A DNA stretch of 64,000 nt from Methanogenium organophilum (GTDB taxonomy: Archaea > Halobacteriota > Methanomicrobia > Methanomicrobiales > Methanomicrobiaceae): assembly GCF_026684035.1 (NCBI RefSeq), contig NZ_CP113361.1:1240001-1304000 (forward strand). Reading direction: 5' to 3'. Made by a program: the position numbers and the translations under genes. Below, piece by piece: positions 1 to 22,323 of this stretch. The notes below the pieces were generated by a model. The model had not been told where the DNA came from and did not search any database. It saw only the letters and a list, made by a program, of their open reading frames with translations. Every line of letters begins with the position of its first letter. The stretch's first letter is position 1.

Positions 1-100
1 AATTGAGTGGTGAAGGGATAATGGTTGGTGGCGGGGCAATTTCGCGCGGCCTGCAGATGCAGTACAGAAGGTGGTGTGGACGTCATCCCGTTCTGACCAC

Positions 101-116
101 AATAAATATATAATTT
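101..116 (+). promoter_or_regulatory. TATA box of the betaine transporter operon
   Basis: An AT-rich run with an aaatatata core lies about 120 bases before the first transporter gene. It fits an archaeal TATA box and would leave a 5' leader of roughly 95 bases. The first 230 bases of the window hold no convincing gene. Inference from position and composition only. Confidence 0.5.
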
Positions 117-232
117 TTACACAAAAGGTGGCCCAATATCCGGAACCCAACCATTCATGTAACTGTGGGACAAAAAGTTTTATGTATTCGGGCTCGATCT
201 AAAAATCCCGTATATCCCGGAGTTGCCATCTC

Positions 233-1453
233 ATGGAAGAAACCCAGGAAGAAGAAAAATATCATACTATCAAAGTCAGTGTCAGAAATCTGACGAAAAT
301 TTTTGGGAAACATCCTGAAGATGCCCTGAAACTTATCCAGCAGGGAAAGAAGAAGCAGGAAATTTTTGAGAAGACCGAGCAGAATGTTGCGCTTCGGTCC
401 ATTTCTTTTGACGTCTATGAGGGCGAGTTGTTTGTTCTGATGGGGCTTTCCGGCTGTGGAAAGTCGACCCTTCTGCGGTGCATCAACCGGCTTATCGAAC
501 CGACGAGCGGAAATATCGAAATCGACGGAACAGATATCGTTACGATGAGCGAGGACGAACTGCGGCAGATGCGGCGTACGAAGATCGGGATGATCTTCCA
601 GAACTTTGCCCTCCTCCCCCACCGTACTATTCTGGAGAATGTTGCGTTCGGACTTGAGATACAGAACACTCCTGTTGAAGAGCGGGAACAAAAAGCACGG
701 GAAGCAATTGATCTTGTCGGTCTTTCAGGCTATGAGGAGAGTTATCCCTCCGGCCTTTCCGGAGGTATGCAACAGCGGGTCGGCCTCGCACGTGCACTGG
801 CAAGTGATGCGGACATCCTCCTGATGGATGAGGCATTCAGTGCCCTTGATCCTCTTATCCGTCGTGATATGCAGGATGAACTCATTGAACTGCAGGCCAG
901 GCTGAACAAGACAATCATCTTTGTGAGCCATGATCTGGATGAGGCCCTCAAACTCGGGGACCGTATTGCCCTGATGAAGGACGGAGAGATTGCGCAGTTA
1001 GGGACCGCCGAAGACCTTCTTCAGAATCCCCGCTGTGATTATGTGGAGCGGTTTGTCGAAGATGTCAACCTCTCCCGTGTACTGGTTGCAAAGGACGTAA
1101 TGAAACGTCCCGAGCCGCTCCTACCCCCGGATTCGGGGCCGAGAAATGCCCTCCGCCTGATGGAGGAGTACGGTATTTCCAGTATATTTGTTGCAGGAAA
1201 GGACCGGAAATTCCGTGGTCTTGTAACGGTAGACGGGGCTGTCGAGGCTAAGAAACGTGATATCCCTCTGAGAGAACTGATGATCACTGACACCCCTACG
1301 GTTGAAATGGATACCCCTGCGCAGGAACTGATGCCGATTATGGCCGAAACCGCCTATCCGGTGGCAGTTCTTGACAGTGACGGGAAAATTAAAGGGCTTA
1401 TCGTGCGGGGTTCACTGCTTGCAGGTCTGGCCCGGCTGGAGGTTGAGGTATAA
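233..1453 (+). CDS. proV: Glycine betaine/proline-type ABC transporter, ATP-binding subunit
   Basis: This is the cytoplasmic ATPase of an osmoprotectant uptake system (ProV/OpuAA family). Walker A is GLSGCGKST at residues 71-79, the signature LSGGMQQR is near 174, and a Walker B run ending LLMDEAFSALDP follows. The N-terminal NVALRSISFD region and the length of 406 residues match ProV-type ATPases. Residues about 285-400 look like a pair of CBS domains, which in this family sense ionic strength. It overlaps the permease start by one base, so the two are translationally coupled. The substrate is most likely glycine betaine or a related compound; the sequence alone cannot separate these. Confidence 0.93.
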   Translation: MEETQEEEKYHTIKVSVRNLTKIFGKHPEDALKLIQQGKKKQEIFEKTEQNVALRSISFDVYEGELFVLMGLSGCGKSTLLRCINRLIEPTSGNIEIDGTDIVTMSEDELRQMRRTKIGMIFQNFALLPHRTILENVAFGLEIQNTPVEEREQKAREAIDLVGLSGYEESYPSGLSGGMQQRVGLARALASDADILLMDEAFSALDPLIRRDMQDELIELQARLNKTIIFVSHDLDEALKLGDRIALMKDGEIAQLGTAEDLLQNPRCDYVERFVEDVNLSRVLVAKDVMKRPEPLLPPDSGPRNALRLMEEYGISSIFVAGKDRKFRGLVTVDGAVEAKKRDIPLRELMITDTPTVEMDTPAQELMPIMAETAYPVAVLDSDGKIKGLIVRGSLLAGLARLEVEV

Positions 1454-14385: not shown

Positions 14386-17300
14386 ATGGCCCATGATGAC
14401 ATCATCGAAGGGAAGGCCTTCCAGATGCCCGACGAACTGACCGTTGTCGCCATCGGGGGGTGCGGAAAGAAGCTCGTATCACATCTCTACGAGCATGAAT
14501 GGTTCTTTCGCCATTATCTGGCGGATGGAAAACGGCTCACGCTCTACACGATAGACACCGACTCGAACCAACGGGCGGACGACATCGCCCGCACCGAACG
14601 AGTGCGGGGAACGGTCGCCCGGCTGCAGCAGACACAGACCGGGATGGGGGGCACCGTGAAGTGCTCCCACTATCACCTGCCCGACCTCGCGAACGTCGAG
14701 CGGGTCTCTTCGCTTACCGCACAGGATATTGCCCGCCAGATCAAGACCCGGCGGGAGCGCCCGCTCGTGGACGTCTGGTGGATGAACGACCCCGATTACG
14801 GGTTCGACTACGCGATGCTCAAGAAAATCGACAAGAACATCGTCGACGACTTCGGCGGCGGGGTGCACCGTAGGCGTGCCATCTCGAAGGCGGTCTTCTA
14901 CAAGGCGATCACCCAGGGCGGCGAGCAGTTCCCGTCGTTCCAGGGCCACGGCCCCGTCGCCTTAATCATCGGCCTTGGGGGCGGGACCGGGTCGGGGATG
15001 TTCATCGATCTCGCCCGCTACATCAAAGAGAAACGCGGGCAGGAGTCAAAGATCTGGCTCTTTGTGGTCCTCCCCGCCGCAAGCGAGGGGGAAAAGGAGC
15101 AGCTCAACGCCGCCATTGCCCTCTCGGAGATTGAATACCTCAACATGAAGGACGACAAGCTCTTCAACTACATCATCGTCTCATCCCTCTCCCCGACGGG
15201 CTACGTGGACGGCGGGGACCGCAAGCAGGAGGTAGTCGAGTTCGACGCGGCGTTCCCGTATCTCTTCATCAACTCCTTTTACCTGCCGACAGCAGACATC
15301 TCCGCCATCGTCGATGCCAAGAAGGACTATTCCGGCTTCATCTTCGCCGATTCGCATGTAATAGAGTATCCGGTCGAGACACTCCGGTCCCTGAAGACGG
15401 GGTTCGATACCGTCATCGACCTCCTTGCGGAGAACGCACAGCACCGGACACGAATCCAGAAGGAGGTCTCCGACTTCCTCGCGACGAATGCCTCCCTCTA
15501 CCCGGAGGAGTTCGCCAAGGCGGACACAGAGATCACCCACGACGATGTGAACCTCTACCGCCGGGAGATCGAACGGATAAAAAAGGTCTGGGAGAACGAG
15601 ATCACCGACCTCCTCAACTTCCGGACGCAGTCCATCATCGAGTCCGCGGTCATAAACAACATGCCTGAAGAGCTCCGCGACATCACCGTCGTGAAGGACT
15701 TTGACGGTCTCGCGGAGTATGTCTCGCGCCTGCGGACGTCCCTTGAAAACGAGTCAAAACCGCATGAAAACGCAAAGGACCAGGAACTCTACGACGTCGT
15801 CAAGACCCATCTCCGGCTCCTCGAAGAACAGGCGGCTCTCCGGAAACAGACGCTCTCCGTAAGTGAGACGCCCGCACGGGTGGCCCTTGCCGCTGTCCTC
15901 CGCGGGGAAGAGAACTTCGGGAAAATAACGGGTGATATCACGGCCCGGCGTGCCACACTCAAGGCGGGCATCAGCGAGGCGGATACCCGGGTGCAGAAGA
16001 AGCGCACCGACCGCGATTCGATCACGGCAGATCAGACCACCATGCTCGACCGCATCCGTGCCGAGGTAAACGCCCTTGCAAAACCGGTCGATGACTATGT
16101 GTCCCTCGGGCAGGGCGGCGAAGCCGGGACGGAGACTGTCGAAGGGGCGGAACGGGCGTTTCTCGAGACCTTCTCGGCGCTCCTCCTTGCCATGCAGGAG
16201 AACCTGAACCGGGCGGAGAAGAAATCCCCCAAACCTGTCAAGCGCGATGCGTGGCTCGCATCGCTCCCGCTCAAAGACATTCGCAATGCTATCGACCGGC
16301 TGGAGACGGCGACGGGCAGCGACTTCTCGTACCTCTCCGACCTTGCCGAATCGGTCGCGCTCTATGACTACAACGAGTACATGCTCCGGGTCGCCAAGAA
16401 GCAGGGCATCGGCGACAGCATTCTCGGGCGTAAACTCGACGCCGGCATTTACCGCAGCGAGAAGGCGACAAAAGAGGAGCGTATCCGCAAAATTGCTCAG
16501 CTCCATCCCGGAAAGATCGCGATTCACGACCCCTTCGAGGTCACCGTGCAGGACCGGTTCCTGAGCCGCGAGATGGACACCCGTCTGCGCTCGCTGCGGG
16601 AGGCGACCATCGCCCCGCTCGTATCGGAGTTCAATCTTGATTCCGAAGAGAGGGCAAGGCTCATCGGTGCGTTTGCAGGCAGCGATACGGCGGCGATTCT
16701 CACGAGTGTCCGGGAAACCCTCACGGAGATCATCAACAGACGGGAAGGCTATCCCGCCAAGATCGCCGCTGTTACCGATGAAATCGATCAGCTCATCCTC
16801 TCACAGAAGCGGATGCAGCAGCAGGTCGAGTTCCTCCAGAAGACCGATGACCTCGTGAGCGCCACCTTCGATCCACGAAAGAAAGTCACGGCGGGAGTGG
16901 AGGCATACGAGGCAGGTCTGCGGGCCATCGATGAGCGGCGCCGGAGCGGTACCGCCACTGTCGAGGGGATGTACCGCACCTGGTTCGGGGAGATTAACCC
17001 GACCATTCTCTCCCTCCTGAAAGACGATTCAGACCTCTCGGTCCTTGACTACGACGATGACGGCCGCTCTGAGATCGAAAAGCTCTACCAGATTGTCCAG
17101 TGGAAATACAAGGAGCTCGTCGATGCCCACAAGCTCGGGCTCTCCAACATCTCCATCGGCTACGGCAGCGGCGGGACCGAGCGCTGGAGCTTCGACAAGG
17201 CGGCCCTCGTCGCCGCCTCGCCCTCGCGGTGGCTCTCGCAGCTCATCGACAACAAGGCAGGCGACTTCCGACGCACGCTCGTGAAGTCACTTGACTTAAA

Positions 17301-17640
17301 GGGCGTCGACAGCGCGAAGGTGAACGCTCACACCTACACCCGGCCCTGGGAGATATCGCTCACCTTCTATGCCGCAGCAGGATTCCTCGACAACATCTCG
17401 CCCCTGACCACCGGCGGGGGCTACTGGGAGAAGTACGTGAAAGCGCAGGACAACATCCTTCACCACGCCCTCTACCTGCACGAGGGGCGGTACGTGGTCC
17501 GGGACCACACGCTCCTTTTGACCGACGCGGCCGAGATCGCCGACCTCGAATCCGGCGACCGTGACCAGGTGGCGGCGGCAAAAGAACGGGTACTTGCGCT
17601 CTATAGCATCAGGGATATTAAAGAGGCCCTTGGGGAATGA
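14386..17640 (+). CDS. Tubulin/FtsZ-like GTPase with long coiled-coil extension
   Basis: A 1084-residue cytoplasmic protein whose first about 350 residues have the tubulin-superfamily pattern. The first glycine loop is IGGCGKK at 23-29, IDTDSNQ is at 56-62 (compare the INTD strand of FtsZ), and the signature GGGTGSG is at 198-204 followed by FIDLARYI. A FVVLPAASEGEKEQLNAA segment (227-244) matches the region after the signature in FtsZ. The rest is largely charged heptad-like helix (about 370-1000) with a globular end. Size and signature fit the divergent tubulin-like (Tubulin_2) family, not FtsZ or CetZ. A T7 catalytic loop is not obvious. It overlaps the GTPase gene by four bases. Confidence 0.85.
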   Translation: MAHDDIIEGKAFQMPDELTVVAIGGCGKKLVSHLYEHEWFFRHYLADGKRLTLYTIDTDSNQRADDIARTERVRGTVARLQQTQTGMGGTVKCSHYHLPDLANVERVSSLTAQDIARQIKTRRERPLVDVWWMNDPDYGFDYAMLKKIDKNIVDDFGGGVHRRRAISKAVFYKAITQGGEQFPSFQGHGPVALIIGLGGGTGSGMFIDLARYIKEKRGQESKIWLFVVLPAASEGEKEQLNAAIALSEIEYLNMKDDKLFNYIIVSSLSPTGYVDGGDRKQEVVEFDAAFPYLFINSFYLPTADISAIVDAKKDYSGFIFADSHVIEYPVETLRSLKTGFDTVIDLLAENAQHRTRIQKEVSDFLATNASLYPEEFAKADTEITHDDVNLYRREIERIKKVWENEITDLLNFRTQSIIESAVINNMPEELRDITVVKDFDGLAEYVSRLRTSLENESKPHENAKDQELYDVVKTHLRLLEEQAALRKQTLSVSETPARVALAAVLRGEENFGKITGDITARRATLKAGISEADTRVQKKRTDRDSITADQTTMLDRIRAEVNALAKPVDDYVSLGQGGEAGTETVEGAERAFLETFSALLLAMQENLNRAEKKSPKPVKRDAWLASLPLKDIRNAIDRLETATGSDFSYLSDLAESVALYDYNEYMLRVAKKQGIGDSILGRKLDAGIYRSEKATKEERIRKIAQLHPGKIAIHDPFEVTVQDRFLSREMDTRLRSLREATIAPLVSEFNLDSEERARLIGAFAGSDTAAILTSVRETLTEIINRREGYPAKIAAVTDEIDQLILSQKRMQQQVEFLQKTDDLVSATFDPRKKVTAGVEAYEAGLRAIDERRRSGTATVEGMYRTWFGEINPTILSLLKDDSDLSVLDYDDDGRSEIEKLYQIVQWKYKELVDAHKLGLSNISIGYGSGGTERWSFDKAALVAASPSRWLSQLIDNKAGDFRRTLVKSLDLKGVDSAKVNAHTYTRPWEISLTFYAAAGFLDNISPLTTGGGYWEKYVKAQDNILHHALYLHEGRYVVRDHTLLLTDAAEIADLESGDRDQVAAAKERVLALYSIRDIKEALGE

Positions 17641-19202
17641 TCATCAACACGCAGCGGCGGCGGACCTACCTCCTCGTGGCCCTTCCCATCAGCCTGCTCG
17701 TTGCCTGGGTCTTCACCGCGGTCGCCCCGGTCTTCAAGATTCACCCACCCTCTTTTGCCCTCACGGTGGCTGTCGAGTTCCTCTGCGGGCTCTTTCTGGC
17801 GGTTGCCGTGGGGATGATCTTCAACGAGGATTCCCGGATAAATGGCATTGTCTATGCGGGCATCTTCGCAGCACTGCCGGTCTTCTACGTGATGACGTCC
17901 CCGTGGGCGAACGTGGATCTCCTCACCCTCACCTACACGGCGGGCATCGTCTGCGGTGGGGCGTTCGTCATCCGGGTGGTCACGACCAACCGCTACGACC
18001 ACCTGGCCCGTGGCGCAAAGGGCCTTTTCACCATCTTCTTCGCCCTCATCATCGGGTTTCTCGCGTACGAGATGTACATCTCCGCCTTCACCCCGGATGC
18101 GACGGTGAGCGAGGCGTATGCGGCGCAGTACATCTTCTTTTTCGGGACGGGAATCGTGCTCTCGGTGGTCCTGTACTGGCTTACCATCCGGATCACCGTC
18201 GGGGTGCGGGCCTCGGAGATATTCATCTTCGGCCCCCGGTCGTCGGGGAAGACCTACTTCGTCCTCGGCCTCTGGAGCTACATTTCCCAGCACTTCGAGA
18301 AGGGCCACTCGAACGAAGGGGTGGTTCTCTCGGGAGACCCAACGGACACGGGCGACGACCTGCGGATATCGAATATGTACGCGAAGATCCTCGATGGCAA
18401 GATCCTCTCGCGCACCTACCGGTACCAGATGGTGATGTACCAGCTGACGGGAATGAAGTACGGCATTATCCCGGTCAAGTGGACGGTGGTGGACTATGCC
18501 GGCGAATACTACGACGAACTGAACGAGGAGACCTTCCGCCGGGCGGTTGCCCTCATCGGCGAATGGACCGGCATCCCAACAGCAGACATCCGGCGTCGTG
18601 CGGGAACGATTGAGTTCGTCCGGTTCATCCGGGAGACCTATCCGGAGGCGCTCACCGACCCCGCCTTCACGAGGAGTGTCATCATCACGACGATGTACGG
18701 CAACTTCCTCCGGGCGGGCAAGGTGATCTTCCTCATCGACGGCGAGAAGGTAACGGACGACCGGAAGGGGCATGCCCAGCTTGCGCGGGAGTTCGGGGGC
18801 TACATGAAGACCCTTATCGACCTCGAAGGGGGGCGTTATCTGGGCCTCTTCCGGCCGAACAAGAAGTTCGCGCTCGTCGTCACGAAAGCGGATCTCGTCT
18901 GCTGGAAGAACCGGGAGATCCGCAATCTGCTCCGTACCATGAACGTGGCCAAACTCTCCGAAGTCCCGGAGACCTCAAAGGAGGCCCTGACCATCGAGAC
19001 ACGGCTCTACGAGATCCTCGGCACGAACCAGGTCTTCCGGAACCTTGTCAATATGATGAACGACATCTCGATGTACTTCGTGGCGGTATCGGTCGATGCA
19101 ACGGCGGAACCCTTCCCCACGGAGGAGGGGTTCGAGGAGGAGATCTGGCCGGCGTCGCTTGCGCCGTGGCGGTTTACGGAGATATTCCGGTTCGGCCTGT
19201 AG
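17637..19202 (+). CDS. Polytopic membrane protein with cytoplasmic GTPase domain
   Basis: A 521-residue protein. Six hydrophobic helices (about 11-31, 42-62, 71-87, 97-115, 129-147, 163-183) precede a P-loop GTPase. Its motifs are GPRSSGKT at 199-206, the switch II-like DYAGEYYD at 286-293, and TKAD at 416-419 as the base-specifying motif. VIFLIDGEKV (363-372) is a core strand. The domain belongs with TRAFAC-class GTPases of unknown role. It overlaps the tubulin-like gene as ATGA, a strong sign of stoichiometric partnership. A distinct GTPase next to an FtsZ/tubulin-like gene is a known predicted membrane-remodelling pairing. Membrane fusion of the GTPase is notable. Confidence 0.85.
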   Translation: MIINTQRRRTYLLVALPISLLVAWVFTAVAPVFKIHPPSFALTVAVEFLCGLFLAVAVGMIFNEDSRINGIVYAGIFAALPVFYVMTSPWANVDLLTLTYTAGIVCGGAFVIRVVTTNRYDHLARGAKGLFTIFFALIIGFLAYEMYISAFTPDATVSEAYAAQYIFFFGTGIVLSVVLYWLTIRITVGVRASEIFIFGPRSSGKTYFVLGLWSYISQHFEKGHSNEGVVLSGDPTDTGDDLRISNMYAKILDGKILSRTYRYQMVMYQLTGMKYGIIPVKWTVVDYAGEYYDELNEETFRRAVALIGEWTGIPTADIRRRAGTIEFVRFIRETYPEALTDPAFTRSVIITTMYGNFLRAGKVIFLIDGEKVTDDRKGHAQLAREFGGYMKTLIDLEGGRYLGLFRPNKKFALVVTKADLVCWKNREIRNLLRTMNVAKLSEVPETSKEALTIETRLYEILGTNQVFRNLVNMMNDISMYFVAVSVDATAEPFPTEEGFEEEIWPASLAPWRFTEIFRFGL

Positions 19203-19223: not shown

Positions 19224-20633
19224 ATGCACGACGCATACGGTATATTTACACCGGACGGCGAAGCACTGGGAGGAACCCTTACAGACGAGTACGCCCTCCG
19301 GCTCGCTGAACGGCTCGACGAAAGTTCGGCGTCGCTTTATATCAGCACGAAACACGGCGTCCTTCTGATGGGCACCGCGGTGAACGTCCAGAAACAGGGG
19401 CGGCGGCCCGACACGGTGATTTATCTCGAACGGACCGTCTGGGAGGGCGGGCCGGTGCCGGCGGTCGATCGCTCGGCCGTACATGCCTTCTTTGAACGCG
19501 TCGAACGGCGTCTCGCGGCGATGGAGTACGCCCTGCGGGACGTGGGCCCGGAGATCGGGGCGGGGGCAGGCCTGGTGGGGGCCCGCACGACCGACTATGC
19601 CCTCGGGCGGCTCCTTCTGGGGCGGCCCGTCGTCTGTACCGCAGGCATCCCCTCCCGGTCGTATGCCTTCTTTTTCGCGGTTCTGAACGCACTGCAGCCC
19701 CTTCTCTCCACCGGATTCACTTTTGTCATCGCGAAACGTATCGTCCCCGATATCGACCTCGTGGTGGCGGAGACTGCCGCCGGGCGGGTGCAGGTAGACC
19801 TTGCCACGGAAACGGTGACGAACGATGCCTGGGAGGAGATGTACCGCGACATCGGGCGCTTCTCCCGCAACCCGGTTCTCCGGCAGATTCTCGCAGGGGC
19901 GTCGTCCCACCCCGCCCTCACGGGAAGCCTCCTTGCCGAGTACACCCATGCAAACCGCGTTCCCCCGGGCGGAAAGAACCGTTTTGCGGCATTTCTTGCA
20001 GAAGAGGGCATTCCCCGTGCCCCGAAACCACCGGAGGGAGGCACCCCCGGCATCGCCCGGCCGCCCGAAGAACGACCGGCCCGACCGGATGAGGCCGATT
20101 ATGCGAAACCGCCTCCCCGGCCGGCGGCAGACCGGCTGGAGCAGGAGTATGCGGTGCATATGGAACAAAAGCGGACGGCCCGGCGGCGCCTTGCAATCGG
20201 GGTGGGGGTGGTGCTTGTTCTTATGGTGGCCATCCTTGTGCTTTTTCTCGTTTCGCCGGGACTCCTTCCTCTGCCCCTGAATGGCACCCCCGCTCCGCAC
20301 ATCACCCCGTCGGCGCCGATCACGCCGGAGCAGGCGACTGTTCTCATAACGCGGCTGAACACGACGCCGGGGAATATCCCCGCAGACCTGCAGGGGGTGG
20401 GGAGTGCGTACGATATCACGGTCGCGGCGCCGCAGAACGTGACGCTGGAGCTGACAGCAGACATCTCAACGGAGCGATTCTACAGCCTGATGCGCTACAA
20501 CGCATCCGGGGCAATCTGGGAGCCGGTCGAAACCCCGCTCGTCGTCACGAACAAAACGGTTGTTGCATCTATCCCCACGTCGGGCATCTATCGCGTCTTC
20601 ACCAACCGGACCCCCCCGCAGCCGCAGGGGTAG
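19224..20633 (+). CDS. Bitopic membrane protein of tubulin-like operon
   Basis: A 469-residue protein of unknown family. Residues 1-250 form a soluble, presumably cytoplasmic domain starting MHDAYGIFTPDGEALGG. A Pro-rich linker (about 264-305) and one membrane helix (about 322-344, after the basic KRTARRR) follow. The last 120 residues would be outside, with Pro/Thr-rich stretches, several NxT sites and a beta-rich end. The N-terminal domain may be the cytosolic partner of the adjacent GTPase (for example a regulator), but no motif proves this. It begins 21 bases after the GTPase stop behind a GGAGGGGGGA site. Confidence 0.75.
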   Translation: MHDAYGIFTPDGEALGGTLTDEYALRLAERLDESSASLYISTKHGVLLMGTAVNVQKQGRRPDTVIYLERTVWEGGPVPAVDRSAVHAFFERVERRLAAMEYALRDVGPEIGAGAGLVGARTTDYALGRLLLGRPVVCTAGIPSRSYAFFFAVLNALQPLLSTGFTFVIAKRIVPDIDLVVAETAAGRVQVDLATETVTNDAWEEMYRDIGRFSRNPVLRQILAGASSHPALTGSLLAEYTHANRVPPGGKNRFAAFLAEEGIPRAPKPPEGGTPGIARPPEERPARPDEADYAKPPPRPAADRLEQEYAVHMEQKRTARRRLAIGVGVVLVLMVAILVLFLVSPGLLPLPLNGTPAPHITPSAPITPEQATVLITRLNTTPGNIPADLQGVGSAYDITVAAPQNVTLELTADISTERFYSLMRYNASGAIWEPVETPLVVTNKTVVASIPTSGIYRVFTNRTPPQPQG

Positions 20634-20679
20634 CGGTGGGGACAGCGGTCCGGACGGGAGAACAGGGGAGGTGTCTTGC

Positions 20680-22323
20680 ATGAAATCGGATCCTGCGCCA
20701 CTCTGTGTTCTTGTGATAATTATCTGCCTTACGCTCCTTGTGACCGTCTATCCGGCGGCGGCGCAGGTCCGGGGGACGATTGCGGTCTCATCCGAACCGG
20801 AGGGGGCGTCCATCTTCCTGAACGACGAAGACCTCGGTCTGCAGACGAACACGTTCATCGAGGATGTCTTCCCCGGCATTCACTACATCCGGCTGGAACT
20901 GCCGGGCTACCGTACGTGGGAGACATTCTTCGAGGTGGACGAGGGGAAAGTAACCTACATCAGCCACGAGATGGAGCCGATCGTCGGTGGCCCCTTCTCG
21001 GTGGCGACGACACCGCCGGGTGCAGCGGTCTATATCGACGGCACGTTCATGGGGACCTCCGATACCGTTCTCTATGATCTCCCGGCAGGACAGCACCGTA
21101 TCCTGCTCACCCTCGACGGCTACGCTGACTATGCAGCGACGATCACCATCCCGGAGGATATGGCTCAGTCGCTCGTCCATACATTTGAACCACCTTCATC
21201 GACGGGACGGATCACCGTCTCATCCGCCCCAACGAATGCCGCCATATATTTGGGCGGCGTGTACCAGGGTACCACCCCGCTGACGCTCGACGAGGTACAG
21301 CCGGGGACCTATCCAATCGTTCTGACCCGGACAGGGTACGAGAACTGGACGGGCAGCGTGGAAGTGGCGGCTGGCCGGATATCCGAAATATCTGCTGTCC
21401 TCGTACGGTCCCCGGTCCTCCTCGCGGTTGCAAGCATCCCCCCCGGTGCGGAGGTCTTTGTTGACGGCACCCTTCGCGGCACCACCCCGCTCTCCATCTC
21501 CATCGAACAGGGCATGCACACCGTCAGAATCGAGAAATTCGGCTATGAACCGCAGGAAGAGACGGTTGACGCCGGTCCCGACGGCGTATCTGTCTCCGTC
21601 CCGCTCGTCTCGACGGTGCCGCAGGCGCTTGACGCTGCTGAAGAGGCAATCCGGCAAAACGAGGCGTATGGCCCGGACAGGGCCGTGGCCGCCATCAAAT
21701 CCGCATATCTCCAATACGAGGTGGGCGACGCGGAAGGGGCGGTCCGGTATGCGGCAGACGCAGTCGCCCTCGCAGAAGACGTGGACCGGGACGGTGTCAC
21801 CAATGCCCGTGACATCAGTCCCCGCCTGCACAACGCCGTGATCTATGTGTTGCCGGTGTTGCTCTGCATCCTCGCAGCGGCCCTCTTCGTCCGTGATGTT
21901 GCTCTCCACCGGGTGCTCCCCGTTCTGGGCGTCGACCTGCCCGCGACCGTCAGGGAGGATGATATGCTTGCCCGGGCCGGGATCACAGCGGACGCCGCCG
22001 GCGGGCCGTACCGGGGATTCGTCTGCACCGTTACAATAGACGGGGCCACGGTGGAGCACTTCACGATCCCGGGGCGGTACCGGGTGATGCTCGGCGGCCG
22101 GGGGCGGGGCGTTCACCGGCTCCGGGTGCACCTGCAGGTGGTGCAGGAGCGCTACGGAACGGTGGAGCGTTCAGAGGAATGGTCATTCATCGTCGAACCG
22201 GCGGAGCGGGCGGCTGGCGGCGGGGGAGAGATCATCGATGCGGAAGAGCCCGTGGGGGATCTGGCAGCTCTCTATGAGGAGGAACGCGATGATGGCGGGA
22301 CCAAAGCCGAAGCAGGGACGTAG
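20680..22323 (+). CDS. PEGA-repeat membrane protein, last gene of tubulin-like operon
   Basis: A 547-residue protein. A GGGGAGG at 20665-20671 lies 8 bases before this ATG; an open frame from 20560 overlaps the previous gene and is rejected as start. After a signal helix (about 8-29) come four PEGA domains (about 31-98, 101-170, 172-240 and 241-310), each with a VSSEPEGASIFLND-like or SIPPGAEVFVDGTLRGTTPL-like core. Then follow a helical region, a DVDRDGVTNARD calcium-loop-like motif near 367, a membrane helix (about 387-410) and a 135-residue beta-rich tail. PEGA domains are thought to bind surface layers or glycans, so this protein could anchor the complex to the cell wall. Confidence 0.88.
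   Translation: MKSDPAPLCVLVIIICLTLLVTVYPAAAQVRGTIAVSSEPEGASIFLNDEDLGLQTNTFIEDVFPGIHYIRLELPGYRTWETFFEVDEGKVTYISHEMEPIVGGPFSVATTPPGAAVYIDGTFMGTSDTVLYDLPAGQHRILLTLDGYADYAATITIPEDMAQSLVHTFEPPSSTGRITVSSAPTNAAIYLGGVYQGTTPLTLDEVQPGTYPIVLTRTGYENWTGSVEVAAGRISEISAVLVRSPVLLAVASIPPGAEVFVDGTLRGTTPLSISIEQGMHTVRIEKFGYEPQEETVDAGPDGVSVSVPLVSTVPQALDAAEEAIRQNEAYGPDRAVAAIKSAYLQYEVGDAEGAVRYAADAVALAEDVDRDGVTNARDISPRLHNAVIYVLPVLLCILAAALFVRDVALHRVLPVLGVDLPATVREDDMLARAGITADAAGGPYRGFVCTVTIDGATVEHFTIPGRYRVMLGGRGRGVHRLRVHLQVVQERYGTVERSEEWSFIVEPAERAAGGGGEIIDAEEPVGDLAALYEEERDDGGTKAEAGT

Follow-up and report, generated by a model that had tools for sequence, protein, structure and literature searches.

An archaeal FtsZ-like 1 protein encoded beside a membrane GTPase, with a tubulin fold that may be split by a helical arm

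What kind of protein carries a tubulin-like domain at its N-terminus and several hundred mostly helical residues behind it? The question is raised by a gene in a stretch of 64,000 nucleotides (hereafter the window) from an archaeal genome of 2.65 Mb. Its product, Z, had been described in the original prediction as a tubulin-like domain with a coiled-coil extension of about 700 residues and a globular end. The gene is a single uninterrupted frame with an ATG start (Table 1). Full-length relatives show 67-77% identity within the same family and 38-44% within the same order, indicating that the frame is under selection, and the many intact orthologues rule out a pseudogene or a sequencing artefact. 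Z matches the Pfam profiles Tubulin_2 (PF13809; E 8.9e-12, 45.4 bits for a cut-off of 27, residues 191-256) and Tubulin (PF00091; E 6.5e-9, above its cut-off, residues 191-249), and this nucleotide-binding signature bears out the tubulin-like N-terminal domain. The Tubulin_2 profile is also matched by all 27 aligned family members (E 0.01). Z is a real protein of the described FtsZ-like 1 family (FtsZl1; Pfam Tubulin_2). The same genome additionally encodes FtsZ1, FtsZ2 and CetZ, as we named these paralogues in this analysis; a search of that genome at E 10 gave no match of the FtsZ_C (PF12327) and CetZ_C (PF21011) profiles to Z. Strong matches to Z (E <1e-100, a few of them in broken assemblies) were found in 18/27 genomes from its own genus or family and in 6/32 of the remaining genomes of the order. 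In a sample taken across the phylum, 48 of 392 genomes had a match at E 1e-15 or better, some of these over the N-terminal part only.

Table 1. Positions in the window of the genes around Z and of the parts of Z discussed in the text
Feature	Position	Strand	Basis
Protein A, 264 aa	13589..14383	+	hydropathy, operon survey
Protein Z, 1084 aa, FtsZ-like 1 / Tubulin_2 family	14386..17640	+	open frame, Pfam, orthologues
Z residues 15-329, first tubulin-fold part (nucleotide-binding domain, H7, T7, S7)	14428..15372	+	Pfam, model, VIA-align, conservation
Loop T4, Z residues 196-204, GLGGGTGSG	14971..14997	+	glycines in 63/63 sequences
D304, possible catalytic acid of T7, as placed by the model	15295..15297	+	D/E in 60/63
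Z residues 330 to about 924, inserted helical arm between S7 and last strands	15373..17157	+	model, conservation, partial heptads
Z residues about 925-1000, predicted second tubulin-fold part (strands 936-944, 977-982, 989-998)	17158..17385	+	model, VIA-align
Z residues 1001-1084, conserved C-terminal family segment	17386..17637	+	63-sequence alignment
Protein G, 521 aa, membrane P-loop GTPase	17637..19202	+	hydropathy, motifs, profile
Protein B, 469 aa	19224..20633	+	operon survey, hydropathy
PEGA-repeat surface protein	20560..22323	+	PEGA in four stretches (E 6.2e-62); the given start may be too far upstream

The architecture noticed in the original prediction was largely right, yet it has been in print since 2010. 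Makarova and Koonin (PMC2875224) described FtsZl1 proteins as an N-terminal FtsZ-like domain followed by an extended coiled coil and a mostly helical C-terminal domain, encoded in operons with vWA proteins, kinases and P-loop GTPases that are membrane-associated in archaea. A member from Methanospirillum hungatei, of the Methanomicrobiales, is named in a figure legend of that paper. The authors could not align the family beyond helix H5 and left filament formation undecided (PMC2875224). Z resembles their FtsZl1 in size, N-terminal domain, the motif GGGTG(S/T)G, the helical middle, the helical C-terminal domain and the archaeal membrane GTPase partner. It differs in two respects: no vWA protein was recognised beside Z, and the C-terminal part is proposed here to complete the tubulin fold, which was not found in PMC2875224. 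More widely, the open-licence literature that we searched held no description of a split tubulin fold for FtsZl1/Tubulin_2. A phylogeny of 2023 put the FtsZl1 group aside as divergent (PMC9871819). FtsZl1 occurs in archaea and in diverse bacteria, and the literature since 2010 that we searched offers neither a structure nor a tested function. The family and its layout being known already, what is added here is the prediction of a split fold, a strict A-Z-G gene module in methanogens and conservation at both ends of the protein.

We then asked how far the middle of Z is a coiled coil. AlphaFold2, given an alignment of 27 sequences, returned a model of Z (mean pLDDT 80.5, pTM 0.59) in which helix makes up 77% and strand 2% of residues 330-911, with mixed alpha/beta regions at 15-329 and 912-1084. 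Of 37 windows of 56 residues each, five (309-364, 505-560, 533-588, 561-616 and 813-868) surpassed shuffled sequences in heptad periodicity (3.5) at z >=3, and the longest model helices span 512-562 and 789-826 plus 828-854. Since the heptads are local and the helices limited in length, the middle of Z is better described as an arm of helices that is coiled coil in places than as a coiled coil of 700 residues. The long helical region announced by the original prediction therefore stands, without the continuous heptads. Its contrast with the short tails of FtsZ and CetZ also holds. In the model, however, the arm seems to be an insertion and not an appendage, and the supposed globular end (about 912-1084) carries strands that finish the tubulin fold, so it is probably no domain of its own. 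A compact enzyme domain at the C-terminus, the outcome that would have spoken against an arm, was not found: Pfam gave no match there, and the 50 VIA-align rows listed for the window model seem without exception to be chains of FtsZ, CetZ or tubulin, a list whose lack of other folds is no evidence against such folds.

The case for an inserted arm comes from structural comparison. The best Foldseek matches to the model were CetZ2 (4b45_A, E 1e-4) and FtsZ (1w5e). VIA-align superposed the model on CetZ 3zid_A over 319 of its 360 residues (Z-score 19.9, rmsd 4.2, model 15..1023) and on FtsZ 5mn5_B over 280/286 residues (Z-score 18.0, rmsd 4.0, model 17..999). As the alignments run through the solved chains nearly to their ends and the last aligned model residue lies at about 1000, the C-terminal strands would come from beyond the arm. 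Strands 936-944, 977-982 and 989-998 are candidates for the late tubulin strands, VIA-align reporting ranges and not residue pairs. From this one model we hold, with moderate confidence, that the tubulin fold of Z is complete, its two parts being separated by an insertion of about 600 residues. Extended to the family, it appears reasonably likely that FtsZl1 proteins are complete tubulins, with a GTPase head interrupted at or near the M-loop site (S7-H9) by some 600 residues that form an antiparallel helical arm. Z would share its nucleotide-binding loops with CetZ and FtsZ, and in the model their entire fold as well, and differ from them by the inserted residues and by a C-terminal domain that their profiles do not recognise in sequence. 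If the split-head reading is true, every protofilament subunit would bear a long lateral arm, forming an SMC-like head on a tubulin fold. The likeness to SMC and Rad50 is an analogy of topology only, that of a nucleotide-binding head interrupted by an inserted helical arm; the folds are different and we do not claim homology. SMC and Rad50 ATPases bind DNA, which is not known of Z.

A second model, of an orthologue from Methanolobus (15 sequences, none from the family of the window's own organism), reached pLDDT 67.9 and pTM 0.42. Its C-terminal half was unassembled, largely below 50 pLDDT, and the split fold was not reproduced. VIA-align placed 177-208 of its residues (Z-scores 13.3-15.7), and 46 of the 50 listed rows stayed within model 2..315; roughly the last hundred aligned residues of the window model therefore stem from its later parts. 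We regard this as a failed replication of the split fold, weakly informative at such confidence. Profile comparisons gave no signal for the C-terminal part either. With hhalign, whole Z profiles aligned significantly only over T4-H5 (about residues 176-252), and a profile with the arm excised gave no C-terminal signal against FtsZ and CetZ. Sliding slices of Z compared with FtsZ/CetZ C-terminal slices yielded nothing above background: one slice near 931 ranked first (P 0.07), a result not repeated with a deeper alignment, and slices starting at 868-892 came 27th and 78th among 80 in one comparison, while in none of six did they rank better than 17/80. Searches of solved structures with the Z sequence returned weak FtsZ/tubulin matches and generic helical matches, nothing else.

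These results bear on the picture of 2010, in which the tubulin part of the protein is limited to the nucleotide-binding half and leads into a coiled coil and then an unrelated C-terminal domain made of helices; such a Z would not polymerise in the manner of FtsZ and would act instead as a GTP-regulated scaffold. That similarity ends after H5 in our comparisons, as it did for Makarova and Koonin (PMC2875224), agrees with this picture, and so does the Methanolobus model, which aligns by its N-terminal part only. The better model, however, places late strands at the C-terminal domain of FtsZ and CetZ over nearly the whole length, and we consider the 2010 picture unlikely. Should a complete fold in two parts be confirmed, the main objection to filaments, the doubt of 2010 about lacking parts, falls. 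The arm would then also be a testable module, removable with the head kept, and the system as a whole a clean target for cryo-EM and genetics.

Conservation was followed in two alignments. One of 63 sequences takes in divergent haloarchaeal and methanogen members; the other, of 27 sequences, was used for the window model and contains the window protein and 26 of 33 loci, leaving out L044, L063 and L067 for frame breaks, L046, L061 and L068 for contig ends, and L056 for a shorter match. In the 63 sequences the T4 glycines G198, G199, G200, G202 and G204 are invariant, position 201 is always T or S, and G24, G27, D57, G159, K168, E234 and N241 are equally invariant. D287 is retained in 61/63. 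Position 304 is acidic in all but three of the 63, and so not universal; D304 sits between model helix 280-297 and strand 318-327, which makes its site a candidate for the T7 position of FtsZ, as placed by the model. In the 27-sequence alignment, invariant positions amount to 83/315 (26%) in residues 15-329, 19/582 (3.3%) in residues 330-911, the least conserved part, with zero in residues 506-610, and 23/173 (13%) in residues 912-1084. The far C-terminus is invariant too at W988, N1003, G1012, H1027, G1034 and R1039 (63/63). Because of this, the family signature, as read from the alignments, is carried by both ends of Z and not by the arm.

The neighbouring genes place Z in a membrane context. 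Among 33 loci surveyed, A lies directly upstream of Z in all 31 with more than 300 bases upstream and G directly downstream in all 30 with more than 600 bases downstream; the short-flank loci omitted were 2/33 for A and 3/33 for G. L052, omitted from the A count for this reason, does show A. A relative of B was present in 21/29 loci and one of the PEGA protein in 11/24 loci with enough downstream sequence. Protein A is predicted to have an N-terminal hydrophobic segment (13-31), an extracytoplasmic part, a C-terminal transmembrane segment (221-239) and a short tail, and it has no match in Pfam (E 0.1). B, with no informative Pfam match, is predicted to have a long N-terminal region, one transmembrane segment (325-343) and an extracytoplasmic end. 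By their sequences, A and the PEGA protein resemble surface proteins with a membrane anchor. For G we predict five transmembrane segments followed by a P-loop GTPase domain with the motifs GPRSSGKT and TKAD, so the GTPase that the original prediction had linked with Z is truly a membrane GTPase encoded by the adjoining gene, and the arms of Z might, as that prediction supposed, extend to the membrane or to this GTPase. In these archaea, Z is always accompanied by it. The gene, its family membership, the intact nucleotide-binding signature and the conserved A-Z-G order are established for Z. One contig with the same operon (L042, 47% identity) is labelled as a Bacteroidota bacterium; its layout is much like that of the archaeal Methanoculleus locus L043, and it is probably a mis-binned contig rather than a case of gene transfer.

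We lean towards Z being the archaeal FtsZl1 of a membrane-linked GTPase module, a GTP-switched, possibly filament-forming scaffold acting at the membrane with G. In the model, the arm would exit and re-enter the GTPase head, with S1-S7 before it and the last strands after it. Z would bind GTP, and its subunits could associate head to tail by an interface close to that of normal tubulins, to which D304 would supply the candidate T7 acid. Such assemblies would display their arms sideways, and G together with the surface proteins A and B may recruit Z to the cell membrane or switch it there. Once there, the assembly might scaffold either the shaping of the membrane or signalling. The first of these, a machine for membrane remodelling or vesicles, was already proposed in 2010 (PMC2875224), and the predicted membrane segments of all recognised partners (A, G, B and the PEGA protein) are consistent with it; a reviewer within the same paper favoured transport or signalling, and we hold the remodelling machine only tentatively. 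In a syntrophy study of 2025 (PMC12008871), motion was reported to upregulate a Methanoculleus operon in which vWA-like hypothetical proteins accompany a gene annotated as CetZ.

Alternatively, the module may be a defence-like switch in biological conflict, in which a DO-GTPase is paired with a tubulin effector, the latter assembling once an invader is sensed. Kaur et al. (2020, PMC7159879) assigned tubulin-coiled-coil proteins to GTPase-centred conflict systems that also include vWA and HSP70 proteins, and located the tubulin theme in firmicutes and actinobacteria. The Z module shares with those systems the tubulin-coiled-coil fusion and membrane segments, and its partner G may be DO-GTPase-like as well. 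The G of the window scores 16.0 bits against DO-GTPase2, under the cut-off of 27, and 11 of 16 relatives of G match that profile at E 0.01 or better (best 3.6e-6). Hsp70 and VWA genes lie near the tubulin gene on one haloarchaeal plasmid (L100), Hsp70 and GrpE genes on another (L101), and the patchy distribution of Z in the phylum sample would also suit such a role. Unlike those systems, the Z locus shows no recognisable GAP1, vWA or HSP70: Pfam recognised none of these genes, nor any effector, among the eight window proteins scanned, and 14 relatives of B had no GAP1 match (Pfam, E 1), with a coverage of GAP1 types that may be partial. PADLOC gave no convincing match for the five proteins scanned; the best, a CARF-HEPN match to Z (3.1e-4, 17.8 bits, residues 348-516), lies on the helical arm and is read as a coiled-coil artefact. 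As a separate account we find a conflict switch rather unlikely, and the membrane-shaping and defence readings of the module are nearly even.

Several relatives deserve mention in their own right. Divergent family members lie on archaeal plasmids of 117-225 kb (L099, NC_014254.1; L100, NZ_CP034691.1; L101, NZ_CP031147.1), where a hypothetical gene adjoins the tubulin gene downstream, in L099 a weakly DO-GTPase2-like one (E 0.026). A Borg element likewise encodes a Tubulin_2 protein (PMC9879509). One relative genome, G049, has three near-full-length Z-like copies (G049:C1:715794-719021, G049:C1:724121-727348 and G049:C2:529789-532935), the two on C1 in the same orientation and about 5 kb apart. 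The window's own genome encodes a further tubulin paralogue (L004/L102; G000:C1:613863-614351, + strand; PF00091 E 1e-14, CetZ_C 156.9 bits) in a frame of 761 residues, with GLGGSVID in the T4 loop in place of GGGTGSG and a long charged tail in which PxDSxxMG-like motifs recur; it looks like a CetZ with a degenerate GTPase and a disordered repeat tail. Two genomes of the same order (L103 and L104) share this layout, with T4 loops GLGGSVID and GLGGRHAD, and an acidic stretch and a W-I motif form the end of all of these proteins.
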